DNA of 50,509 bases, from assembly GCA_012270795.1 (NCBI GenBank), contig JAAXHO010000207.1, positions 1 to 50,509 on the forward strand, read 5' to 3'. The DNA comes from Candidatus Poribacteria bacterium. GTDB taxonomy: Bacteria; Poribacteria; WGA-4E; WGA-3G. The notes beneath the pieces were generated by a model, which worked only from the letters and a program-made list of their open reading frames with translations, did no database searches and was not told the DNA's origin. Positions 10,914-14,619 of the stretch are shown here, piece after piece. Position 1 is the first letter of the stretch. Each line of letters begins with the position of its first letter. Position numbers and translations under genes: made by a program.

Positions 10914-12071
10914 TTATTTTGTCCATAGTGGAATCAATATCTTTGTCAACTGCGCCAAACTTTCTAAATTATGCGCAGGAAGAAAATAGTCTACGTAAGG
11001 CACTGCAGTTCGGATGCCTCTACAAATCGGTTGATAGTTGTCACTCCCCAGTAACGGATTGAGCCATAAGAGTTTATATGCATGCCGATGTAACATCTCC
11101 ATAGATCGTCGGAGGAGTTCCGCATCACCTCTGTCCCAACCATCACTGATGAGAATTACAACTGACCGATATGCTGAAAAAGATGAAGCGAATTGACGAT
11201 AAAACGCTAATAGACTTTCACCAATTTTCGTGCCGCCCGACCAGTCTGGTACAATATTCGCAACTTCATTCAATCCTGCTGCTAAACCTTTACGACGAAG
11301 CAATCCTGTGATATTCGTCATATATGTGCTGAAGACTGCGACTTCTACTTCTTTTATTGCTTGCTGCATGCCGTAAATGAATTGAATTAGAAATTTGGAA
11401 TAACAATCCATTGACCCGCTCACATCACAGAGGAGTAGAATTTTTGTTTTTTTGATCTTTTGCTTTTTGCGTTTCAGTTCAATCGGTTCGCCACCGTGCA
11501 CAAGGCTCTTCCGCCAACTTCGCCGGAAGTCAATTGTTCTGCCCTTTTTGCTGCTAACTTTGCGTCTGCTCAGTTTTGTGGCTAATACAGCTGCCAATTT
11601 TGCAACAACCTGCCGCGCGCTTTCCATATCTTTTTCAGAATACTCACTAAAATCCTTTCGTGTCAGTACCTCCTCTACGCTATATGCAATAGGATCGTCT
11701 TCCTGTCCCTCTTCCTCATCTGAATCCTCAAAATCTATCCATTGATCCATAATGTTTTCTTCATCTTCGGTATCATATAGGTCTTGCAAGGCGGATGGTT
11801 CAGGTTCTTCTTCGCCGCTATCAGTTATTTGGATTTCTGGTCTTGGATGCCTCCAAAACAGATTGAAGGCTGTATCAAATTTTTCTCTATCTATTTCGTT
11901 AGCAATCAAGTTTGTTCGTGCAGTATGATAAAAAACGTCCCGTTCACTGATGTCAATGAATTCAACGCTTTTACACCAACTTAACTGATTAGTTGGTGTT
12001 ACGTTAACACCTATCTGCCTAAGAAGTTTGCAAAAATCGTTGATCTGATAGAGAAGTGTGTGTTCAGTCAT
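10914..12071 (-). CDS. CoxE-like von Willebrand factor A domain protein
   Basis: A 385-residue protein. The C-terminal half is a CoxE-type VWA domain with a metal-ion-dependent adhesion site DVSGSMD (D216, S218, S220), a Thr in WSGGTKIGES and an ISDGWDRGD loop. The middle is strongly acidic (residues about 95-135), and a basic segment follows (about 165-205). CoxE-like proteins usually work with a MoxR AAA+ ATPase in metal-centre insertion or remodelling, but no such ATPase is encoded nearby. Its ATG overlaps the stop codon of the upstream MNT-HepT-like gene by 8 bp, indicating translational coupling. A truncated copy of its first 31 codons survives at 12994-13089. Confidence 0.85.
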   Translation of the reverse strand: MTEHTLLYQINDFCKLLRQIGVNVTPTNQLSWCKSVEFIDISERDVFYHTARTNLIANEIDREKFDTAFNLFWRHPRPEIQITDSGEEEPEPSALQDLYDTEDEENIMDQWIDFEDSDEEEGQEDDPIAYSVEEVLTRKDFSEYSEKDMESARQVVAKLAAVLATKLSRRKVSSKKGRTIDFRRSWRKSLVHGGEPIELKRKKQKIKKTKILLLCDVSGSMDCYSKFLIQFIYGMQQAIKEVEVAVFSTYMTNITGLLRRKGLAAGLNEVANIVPDWSGGTKIGESLLAFYRQFASSFSAYRSVVILISDGWDRGDAELLRRSMEMLHRHAYKLLWLNPLLGSDNYQPICRGIRTAVPYVDYFLPAHNLESLAQLTKILIPLWTK

Positions 12072-12978
12072 TTTCTTGTTTCTTTAAAAAAGCAATGAAT
12101 GCTTCCAGTTCTTTAGACAGAGTAGGAAAAACTTCGTTAACTCGCGTTGCATTCTCAAGCATTTTTTCATAATCCAGTTCATCTCCGTAAATATATAAGA
12201 AAACATGACGAAAACCGAGTAGATTTTGTAGCTCGGTATAAGTATGCTGTGAAATTACAGGCTCACGCATTGAGGTAGATTCTGCGATTTGTTGCAATAG
12301 GTCTTTGTGCCATTCTTCTCCTGTGGGTAAAGATTGGTCAACCTCTTTAGCAATTCTTTCAAAAATGTTTTCCAACTGCTTATAGAAATCGTATAGATAT
12401 CTGGCGATTTCTATTTCTATGCTACGTCTATATCGCTCTGGGGCATCCTGAATGTTTTGTAAGGCTTGATCAATGCGTTGAACAGCACCTTTTACTTTTG
12501 TATAACCATCACTCATACTTTGTATTATATCTCTTTTCAATGTGTTTGTTCCCTTTCTTTTTTCAGTTTTTGGACATTTTCTGTAGAATCCTGCTTCACC
12601 TTTCTGTATGGGAATTACTTGCTTCTGTATACGGTCACGAAACGTTCCTTTACAATTCTCAAAACTAACCAAATCAATATCGAATTCTTGACTAAAACCG
12701 ATAGTTTCGTATACAGCGCGGAAGTACTGGTCGGACGAAAGTCCCCAAACGGCAATATCAATATCCGACCATTTTGAGAAACGATTTTGTTGTGCAAGCG
12801 ACCCGAATACTGCGACCTGTGTTGCACCAAAATCTTCATAGAGCATTGCTGCTAACTTGTGCGCAGTTTGCCATGCGCGTTGCAGCAATGCCTCATCCAC
12901 TGCCCTTTTATTGAAGTGTTTCTCAAGACGTGCTCTGTTTTCTCGTATTTTTTCTGAGGATAGGTCTTTATGTATCAT
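12064..12978 (-). CDS. nucleotidyltransferase (MNT) fused to HepT-like (HEPN) domain, copy 2
   Basis: A 304-residue protein. Residues about 40-130 form a minimal nucleotidyltransferase: G59-S60 (FGSLAQQNR) and D72/D74 (SDIDIAVW). The helical C-terminal half resembles the HepT-like HEPN domain, with GFRHVFLYIYGDELDY corresponding to that family's RHxxxxxYG signature. In known MNT-HEPN toxin-antitoxin pairs MntA modifies HepT, and the two are usually separate genes; here both are in one chain. The histidine expected in the canonical HEPN R-x4-6-H motif is not evident, so RNase activity is uncertain. It is translationally coupled to the VWA gene and strongly similar to 13082-13954. Confidence 0.8.
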   Translation of the reverse strand: MIHKDLSSEKIRENRARLEKHFNKRAVDEALLQRAWQTAHKLAAMLYEDFGATQVAVFGSLAQQNRFSKWSDIDIAVWGLSSDQYFRAVYETIGFSQEFDIDLVSFENCKGTFRDRIQKQVIPIQKGEAGFYRKCPKTEKRKGTNTLKRDIIQSMSDGYTKVKGAVQRIDQALQNIQDAPERYRRSIEIEIARYLYDFYKQLENIFERIAKEVDQSLPTGEEWHKDLLQQIAESTSMREPVISQHTYTELQNLLGFRHVFLYIYGDELDYEKMLENATRVNEVFPTLSKELEAFIAFLKKQEND

Positions 12979-12993
12979 AATTAATCCTTTACA

Positions 12994-13089
12994 CTAATTT
13001 AACTGCATAGTTATTGTTACGTTAACACCTATTTCCCTAAGAAGTTTGCAAAAATCGTTGATCTGATAAAGGGATGTGTTTTCAGTCAT
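12994..13089 (-). pseudogene. truncated 5' remnant of the CoxE-like VWA gene
   Basis: Reading from ATG at 13089, the frame encodes 31 residues (MTENTSLYQINDFCKLLREI, then GVNVTITMQLN) before TAG. This closely matches the start of the intact VWA protein (MTEHTLLYQINDFCKLLRQI). Its ATG overlaps the stop of the upstream MNT-HepT gene by 8 bp, the same geometry as the intact junction. It is the scar of a tandem duplication of an MNT-HepT gene plus the start of the VWA gene. Confidence 0.85.
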
Positions 13090-13954
13090 TTTCTCGTTTC
13101 TTTAGCCATAGTATGAATGTGTCCAACTCTTTAGAAAGCCTCTCAAAGAGCGCATTAACCTGTGTTGCAATTTGCTCGGTTCTTTCGTAAAGCAATTCTT
13201 CTCCATAGATATTATTGAAAACATGTCGATATGTTAAGAGTTCTTGTAATCGTTTAAAAGTTTTTTGAGAAATCACAGGTTGCCGTTGATCCTGTGGTTC
13301 TGCCATCTGATCCAATAAGTCTTTATGCCACCTACTTCCATCGGGTATCCGCAAGTCAACATCAAGTGCAATTCTTCTAAAGATGTTTTCCATACCTAAG
13401 TAACAATCAACAATGTTTTTTGCAATCGTGGTTTCTATCTCCTCTCTATACTTTGGAGGGGCGGTCTTTATTTTCTCTAATCGTTCTTCAATTTTGGCAG
13501 CAGTTTCCCTAATTTTATTACGTTCATCAGCAATTCGCTGGATAAGTGCGTTTCTATCCACTGCATAGGTACCCCCTTTTTCTATAGGAATTAATTGACT
13601 TTTAATTCTTTCTTGAAACAACCCGTTACAACTTTCAAAATCTACTAAATCAACTTTGAACAACCCACTAATATCTGAAGCGATTGACAATACGCGAAGA
13701 TATTTATATTTTGGAATTCCCCAAACAGCAATATCAATATCCGAATATTTTGAAAATGAACCTTTTTCAGAAAGCGACCCGAATACTGCAACCTGTGTTG
13801 CCCCAAATTCTTCATAGAGCATTGCTGCTAACTTATACGCGGTTTGCCATGCGCGTTGCAGCAATGCCTCATCCACTGCCCTTTTATTGATGTGTTTCTC
13901 AAGACGTGCTCTGTTTTCTTGTATTTTTTCTGAGGATAGGTCTTTATGAATCAT
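13082..13954 (-). CDS. nucleotidyltransferase (MNT) fused to HepT-like (HEPN) domain, copy 1
   Basis: A 290-residue paralogue of the protein at 12064. The first 40 or so residues are nearly identical (MIHKDLSSEKIQENRARLEK), and the middle and end have diverged. Nucleotidyltransferase residues are visible as GSLSEKGSF and YSDIDIAVWG. The HepT-like signature is TYRHVFNNIYGEELLY, again without the canonical HEPN histidine. I start at ATG 13954 by alignment with the paralogue; an upstream in-frame ATG at 13996 would add 14 residues. The pattern of near-identity at the N-terminus and divergence of the specificity-bearing parts suggests old duplication with gene conversion, or domain exchange. Confidence 0.8.
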   Translation of the reverse strand: MIHKDLSSEKIQENRARLEKHINKRAVDEALLQRAWQTAYKLAAMLYEEFGATQVAVFGSLSEKGSFSKYSDIDIAVWGIPKYKYLRVLSIASDISGLFKVDLVDFESCNGLFQERIKSQLIPIEKGGTYAVDRNALIQRIADERNKIRETAAKIEERLEKIKTAPPKYREEIETTIAKNIVDCYLGMENIFRRIALDVDLRIPDGSRWHKDLLDQMAEPQDQRQPVISQKTFKRLQELLTYRHVFNNIYGEELLYERTEQIATQVNALFERLSKELDTFILWLKKREND

Positions 13955-14028
13955 AATTAATGAATCTCTGTGTAAAAATTGAAAGTTAATTTGCATCTGG
14001 TGGACTTATATTCATAAGAGATTTACAG

Positions 14029-14208: not shown

Positions 14209-14619
14209 TCATATTATCACTCCAAGTCTTAAGAGATTTAGACGTGCTCTGATAGGTTGTTCAGCATTCATTTGAAGTGTTTCAACAGTTGTTCGGCCTA
14301 TAGGTGTTTGACCTTGAATTTCTCCAGTATTTGGGTTTAGGAAAAAATGATCCGTCCAGTTTTCTATTCGAGGGTTGAAAAGTCTAACATCAGTTTCTGT
14401 GAGGAAGTCAAATCCGGTTTGCCGCGTTGCTTTATGGGCGTTACAATGTGAACAAGCAAGTGCCAGATTGTTAATTTCTGTCAAACCTCCTGCCGATCTT
14501 GGGACTATATGTTCCACCTCAAAGGCAGAAGGAGAAAAATGTTCTGGATAGTGACAATACTCACATTGCCCTTCTACACGGTTTGCAACATATCCGCGCA
14601 TTGGATCATCTACACGCAC
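14209..14619 (-). CDS. HNH endonuclease
   Basis: A 136-residue small HNH nuclease. A zinc-binding CEYCHYP pair is followed by FEVEHIVPRSAGG, which supplies the HNH catalytic His. NNLALACSHCNAHKATR follows with the second CxxC and the final motif. Proteins of this size and sequence type occur near toxin-antitoxin and restriction genes. The stop codon of the upstream gene at 14635 is 15 bp away, so the two probably share a transcript. Its biological target is unknown. Confidence 0.88.
   Translation of the reverse strand: MRVDDPMRGYVANRVEGQCEYCHYPEHFSPSAFEVEHIVPRSAGGLTEINNLALACSHCNAHKATRQTGFDFLTETDVRLFNPRIENWTDHFFLNPNTGEIQGQTPIGRTTVETLQMNAEQPIRARLNLLRLGVII

Follow-up and report, generated by a model that had tools for sequence, protein, structure and literature searches.

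Tandem fused MNT-HEPN genes upstream of a CoxE-type VWA gene in Poribacteria: a candidate domesticated descendant of type VII toxin-antitoxin pairs

The window, i.e., the whole stretch of 50,509 nucleotides analysed here (contig C228 in the genome of an uncultured, sponge-associated type of bacterium, Candidatus Poribacteria), carries on its minus strand a tandem array of two fused MNT-HEPN genes, MH2 and MH1, followed by a gene for a CoxE-type VWA protein. With a probability of about one half, we read this array as a domesticated, fused descendant of a type VII HEPN/MNT system, which AMPylates a HEPN tyrosine of its own or of a sister chain and for which the VWA protein is not an obligate partner. 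A two-gene toxin-antitoxin pair would first have been fused into one chain and then domesticated. Using ATP, the MNT half would AMPylate Tyr264 in its own HEPN domain or in that of a sister chain or, alternatively, a target that docks onto the HEPN half. The outcome would be a regulator that modifies itself and whose canonical RNase activity is weak or absent; through their differing HEPN halves, the tandem copies may each have a separate partner or target. The VWA protein encoded downstream, in turn, would serve as CoxE-type partner to a MoxR ATPase that is encoded elsewhere in the window's family.

Layout, domains and predicted fold

Transcription runs from MH2 (13954-13082) via MH1 (12978-12064) to the VWA gene (12071-10914), and the nearest named loci belong to Poribacteria MAGs. 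MH1 comprises 304 aa and holds an MNT and a HepT-like HEPN domain in one ORF. MH2 has 290 aa if started at the homologous ATG, and 304 aa would result from an upstream in-frame ATG at 13996. Polbeta (PF18765, Pfam cut-off 26.9) matches MH1 with 2.4e-7 (31.3 bits) and MH2 with 8.9e-10 (39.0 bits), and HepT-like_2 (PF20797, gathering cut-off 27 bits) matches them with 1.7e-30 (105.7 bits) and 1.1e-26 (93.5 bits), respectively. The Pfam matches and the structure model of MH1 agree with a preliminary description of this DNA, which had proposed both domains in one chain and in tandem. Since MH1 and MH2 are only 58% identical, the tandem is old; in the tree, MH2 falls into another subclade than MH1. 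An HNH gene resembling PtuB (PADLOC 4.8e-13) is located at 14209-14619, with no PtuA-like gene adjoining.

The AlphaFold2 model of MH1 (mean pLDDT 80) is alpha/beta in its N-terminal half and helical in its C-terminal half, and its pTM of 0.51 leaves the relative placement of the two domains uncertain. In Foldseek searches with E-values of 1.6e-3 and above, none below 0.001, the best PDB match of the MNT half is the MNT antitoxin 8xeo_B (TMt 0.74), and that of the HEPN half is the HEPN toxin 7bxo_G (TMt 0.83). A HEPN fold in the C-terminal half had been set as a test of the preliminary description, and it is recovered in the predicted structure. A PDB sequence search with the fusion gave weak MNT matches only, and PADLOC likewise gave weak matches only, mostly to the MNT-type PDC-S09.

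These comparisons also bear on a reading of the fusion as a small-molecule nucleotidyltransferase, similar to the aminoglycoside and lincosamide nucleotidyltransferases, with the HEPN half as substrate-binding domain. ANT and LinB have the same two-domain plan and are among the hits of the fold search, with low global scores, and substrate-binding HEPNs lack RX4H (PMC3710099). The closest structural and family matches are, however, toxin-antitoxin proteins, and the conserved RH...Y loop is retained, for which such an enzyme has no evident need. We regard this reading as very improbable, the least probable of those considered here.

Conserved residues and the proposed regulator

The fusion is present in 57 of 58 genomes of the window's Poribacteria family, mostly several times per genome. 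The genome of the window has copies at three places: the pair described above; contig C130, where the copy adjoins a PDH-E1-like gene and a DUF6785 gene; and contig C278, where a tandem pair is flanked by an ABC-transporter gene on one side and an SDR gene on the other (the names E1, ABC and SDR were read from the sequence, without family search). The NT core of MH1 (about aa 42-121) carries G59 S60, D72xD74 and D102, and G59/S60/D72/D74/D102 are kept in 76/75/76/74/72 of 76 full-length copies. In the HEPN half (aa 181-304), which also includes H258, the residues E203, H224, R257 and Y264 are kept in 76, 71, 75 and 70 of these copies. The RX4HXY motif reads R-HVFL-Y-I-Y in MH1, with Y262 in place of the histidine, and R-HVFN-N-I-Y in MH2, and the tyrosine is retained in both. 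The absence of the HEPN histidine from both copies was thus correctly noted in the preliminary description. Family-wide, the histidine position is occupied by N in 47, by Y in 19 and by H in 5 of the 76 full-length copies. Of nine pairs compared, eight give dN/dS values of 0.05-0.28 for the HEPN half and one is too close to judge, and therefore this half is held by selection and is not a remnant.

In two-gene systems, MntA adds AMP to the RX4HXY tyrosine of HepT, and class II HEPNs have a tyrosine without RX4H (PMC7641770). The conserved tyrosine of the fusion sits at the position that MntA adenylylates. An intact NT site together with a conserved tyrosine, but without the histidine, fits a regulator that would AMPylate itself or its sister. 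Tyr264 is lost in 3 of 6 copies with NT active-site loss against 3 of 70 others (Fisher p 0.005, for a small number of related and hence not independent sequences), and the full NT active site is still present in 3 of the 6 copies that lack Tyr264. One class of copies reads RYLF.R..DEL or similar (L049 5596-6516, L080 612-1508, L087 2648-3544 and L123 2670-3557); here the motif histidine and Tyr264 are both gone, and two copies show D74N.

Loss of the histidine is no proof of inactivity, because the R98A and H103A variants of a Legionella HEPN retained RNase activity (PMC11586414), and H224 is a possible alternative catalytic histidine. On this basis the fusion may be a single-chain toxin-antitoxin, in which a HEPN RNase acting via E203, H224 and R257 is silenced in cis by AMPylation of Tyr264 and brings about growth arrest triggered by stress or phage. 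The occurrence of E203 in all and of H224 in nearly all copies speaks for this, as do the purifying selection on the HEPN half, the activity of the Legionella HEPN without its RX4H residues, and the proposal that some HEPNs use a histidine on the N-terminal side of the motif as an alternative active site (PMC3710099). However, H224 is common to the histidine-bearing relatives and so need not be catalytic, and fused HEPNs are typically inactive (PMC3710099). Moreover, copies without NT residues or without Tyr264 persist, a loss that an active toxin should not tolerate, and the copies reside at fixed chromosomal loci, unlike mobile toxin-antitoxin pairs. We therefore consider a cis-silenced toxin rather unlikely and retain the self-modifying regulator as the preferred reading.

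Array recombination and the VWA neighbourhood

The two genes of the array have not diverged evenly. Codons 1-60 of MH1 (12799-12978, minus strand) and of MH2 (13775-13954, minus strand) show 93% nucleotide identity, against 54-62% downstream. For tandem copies of different clades within one genome, codons 1-60 are on average 85% identical, compared with 76% between genomes regardless of clade; none of 500 label shuffles attained the within-genome value. In the HEPN half the relation is reversed: copies from one genome are 58% identical, and copies of one clade from different genomes 75%. These comparisons bear the signature of gene conversion centred on the 5' segment of the array copies, with the HEPN halves diverging. 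The intergenic stretch between MH2 and MH1 (12979-13105, minus strand) retains some 110 bp that align with the 5' end of the VWA gene, a relic which, as far as the alignment tells, is the scar of a duplication that took in the overlap described below. In the tandem pair on C278 (L051 5349-7277), 93% nucleotide identity is confined to codons 61-125 in the NT core, a conversion tract that differs from codons 1-60 of the window array.

The VWA gene (10914-12071, minus strand) matches VWA_CoxE above cut-off with 190 bits. Its MIDAS motif DxSxS (aa 216-220) is intact, and D216, S218 and S220 are invariant in the alignment. The structure model predicts a helical N-terminal domain at low confidence (pLDDT 57). 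The start of the gene overlaps the stop of MH1 by 8 nt (12064-12071, minus strand, ATGACTGA). PADLOC gave no match for the VWA protein, and a literature search for a HEPN-MNT/VWA pairing or for MadB/MadC found no description in the collection of papers covered.

The gene order MNT-HepT/VWA, which the preliminary description suggested looking for in other genomes, was searched for and found to be conserved across genomes of the same Poribacteria family. Among 54 checked family genomes, 51 have a fusion, or a fragment of one, upstream of the VWA gene on the same strand; the distance is within 100 bp in 38, and 32 have the identical 8-nt overlap. Such an overlap could reflect a real functional link, and the VWA protein is probably now translated from the array mRNA through it. 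These counts are the case for a dedicated two-part conflict or regulatory module, in which the fusion would AMPylate or dock on the VWA protein and thereby control a MoxR-VWA chaperone. Against it, the class of the adjoining copy differs among genomes; in some it is recognisable over only 50, 68 or 189 aa, and in some it lacks Tyr264, with the VWA gene intact in either case. In addition, the fusion is not beside the VWA gene in sister families and is missing from most f4 genomes having VWA and MoxR, it occurs in G006 and G012, from which VWA and MoxR are both absent, and its other copies adjoin unrelated genes. We conclude that the arrangement is a lineage-specific neighbourhood and not an obligate module. 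The proposal of an undescribed MNT-HepT/VWA module is only partly borne out; in view of the VWA-free fusion loci, the two VWA-less genomes and the truncated or altered copies next to intact VWA genes, an obligate module is unlikely, and a dedicated one in which the fusion acts on the VWA protein appears decidedly so. Less probable again is the combined picture of a recombining array whose single-chain MNT-HEPN proteins would AMPylate themselves, have the N-terminal segment in common and differ in their HEPN specificity halves, and which would be translationally coupled to a MoxR-VWA chaperone and control it.

In several genomes, a recurrent pair of genes, encoding a protein of about 100 aa and a weakly retropepsin-like one of 122 aa, is found between array and VWA gene (L050 11379-12057, L110 5706-6373, L113 7114-7781 and L114 6895-7863). 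The site looks like an insertion hotspot.

The preliminary description had also remarked on a VWA gene without a MoxR ATPase. This stands in so far as no MoxR gene adjoins the VWA gene in the window, but a MoxR with intact Walker motifs is encoded in trans in the same genome (C140:7193-8104), with MocA at the same locus, so that the view of this VWA protein as acting without MoxR has to be revised. In the window's family, the MocA and MoxR genes remain linked at a separate locus. In the sister families f2 and f4, the VWA gene mostly follows genes for a MocA-like protein and an AAA_5 MoxR-type ATPase, in the order MocA-MoxR-VWA, and in the sister-family genomes G070 and G071 the MoxR gene is also located away from it. 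Of 98 genomes, 65 encode both VWA and MoxR, with a single exception in either direction. Because MoxR and VWA co-occur, because the fusion does not track them, and because the VWA gene outlasts altered adjoining copies, we infer that its functional partner is most likely MoxR in trans, the array supplying the upstream transcript. A tie of the VWA protein to molybdenum hydroxylases was considered and rejected, as MoCoBD_1 proteins also occur in G006, G012 and G015, which lack VWA and MoxR. The families f2 and f4 encode a longer molybdenum hydroxylase of 785-803 aa (L249-L252, from G071, G060, G066 and G058; E below 1e-81), which is absent among the sampled f1 genomes.

Relatives and comparison with known systems

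The array shares with the type VII HepT/MntA pairs (e.g., SO_3166/SO_3165 and the Legionella HEPN-MNT) both folds, the NT triad, the position of MNT N-terminal of HEPN, and an acceptor-type tyrosine two residues past the position of the motif histidine. In contrast to the two adjacent genes of these systems, each copy in the window is a single chain from one ORF. The RX4HXY motif is altered at the histidine as given above, and the spacing is GSX11DXD rather than GSX10DXD. The window fusions also score below the NCBIfam equivalog cut-offs, with 29.8 and 38.0 of 60 bits for MntA and 16.2 of 60 for HepT.

Further relatives are two-gene MNT/HepT_2 pairs, e.g., in other Poribacteria (G074 L226) and on cyanobacterial plasmids (L246-L248), which have the same HEPN family (PF20797) and an MNT partner. 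Their genes overlap but are unfused, and none was seen in tandem arrays; some (G074, Gloeothece) also carry N at the histidine position. The same two-domain fusion is found in further Poribacteria (G068, G069, G070, G073 and G075), in a separate clade of the tree (G068-G075) which retains the RX4H histidine (e.g., RHLFRHTYGYEL). With two fusion clades, fusion either happened twice or was reversed once; it probably arose twice, the deep joins of this tree being uncertain owing to long branches and a single origin being compatible with the best-supported ones. As there are both histidine-bearing fusions and unfused relatives carrying N, the joining of the two genes and the loss of the histidine were two distinct events.

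With the CoxD-CoxE MoxR-VWA pairs, the VWA gene shares the VWA_CoxE domain, the MIDAS, a predicted helical N-terminal domain (from the low-confidence model) and a genome encoding MocA and a MoxR of the same phyletic profile. It differs in that MoxR-MocA lies at another locus in the window's family, with the fusion array upstream instead, and in that no tie to the presence of molybdenum hydroxylases was found.

The claim that known MNT-HEPN systems are always two separate proteins is contradicted by the 2013 HEPN survey (PMC3710099), which records MNT fusions, finds fused HEPN domains typically without the RX4-6H residues, and already proposes that such fusions are domesticated toxin-antitoxin pairs. 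MNT-HEPN fusion and histidine loss are hence already known; new are the unusual neighbourhood and the recombining array, and this is not a categorically new system. It is a well-sampled case, in which one family contributes many genomes and both two-gene relatives and another, histidine-bearing fusion are at hand for comparison, and it allows one to ask whether AMPylation in cis persists after a type VII pair has fused, and what a HEPN without its histidine does.
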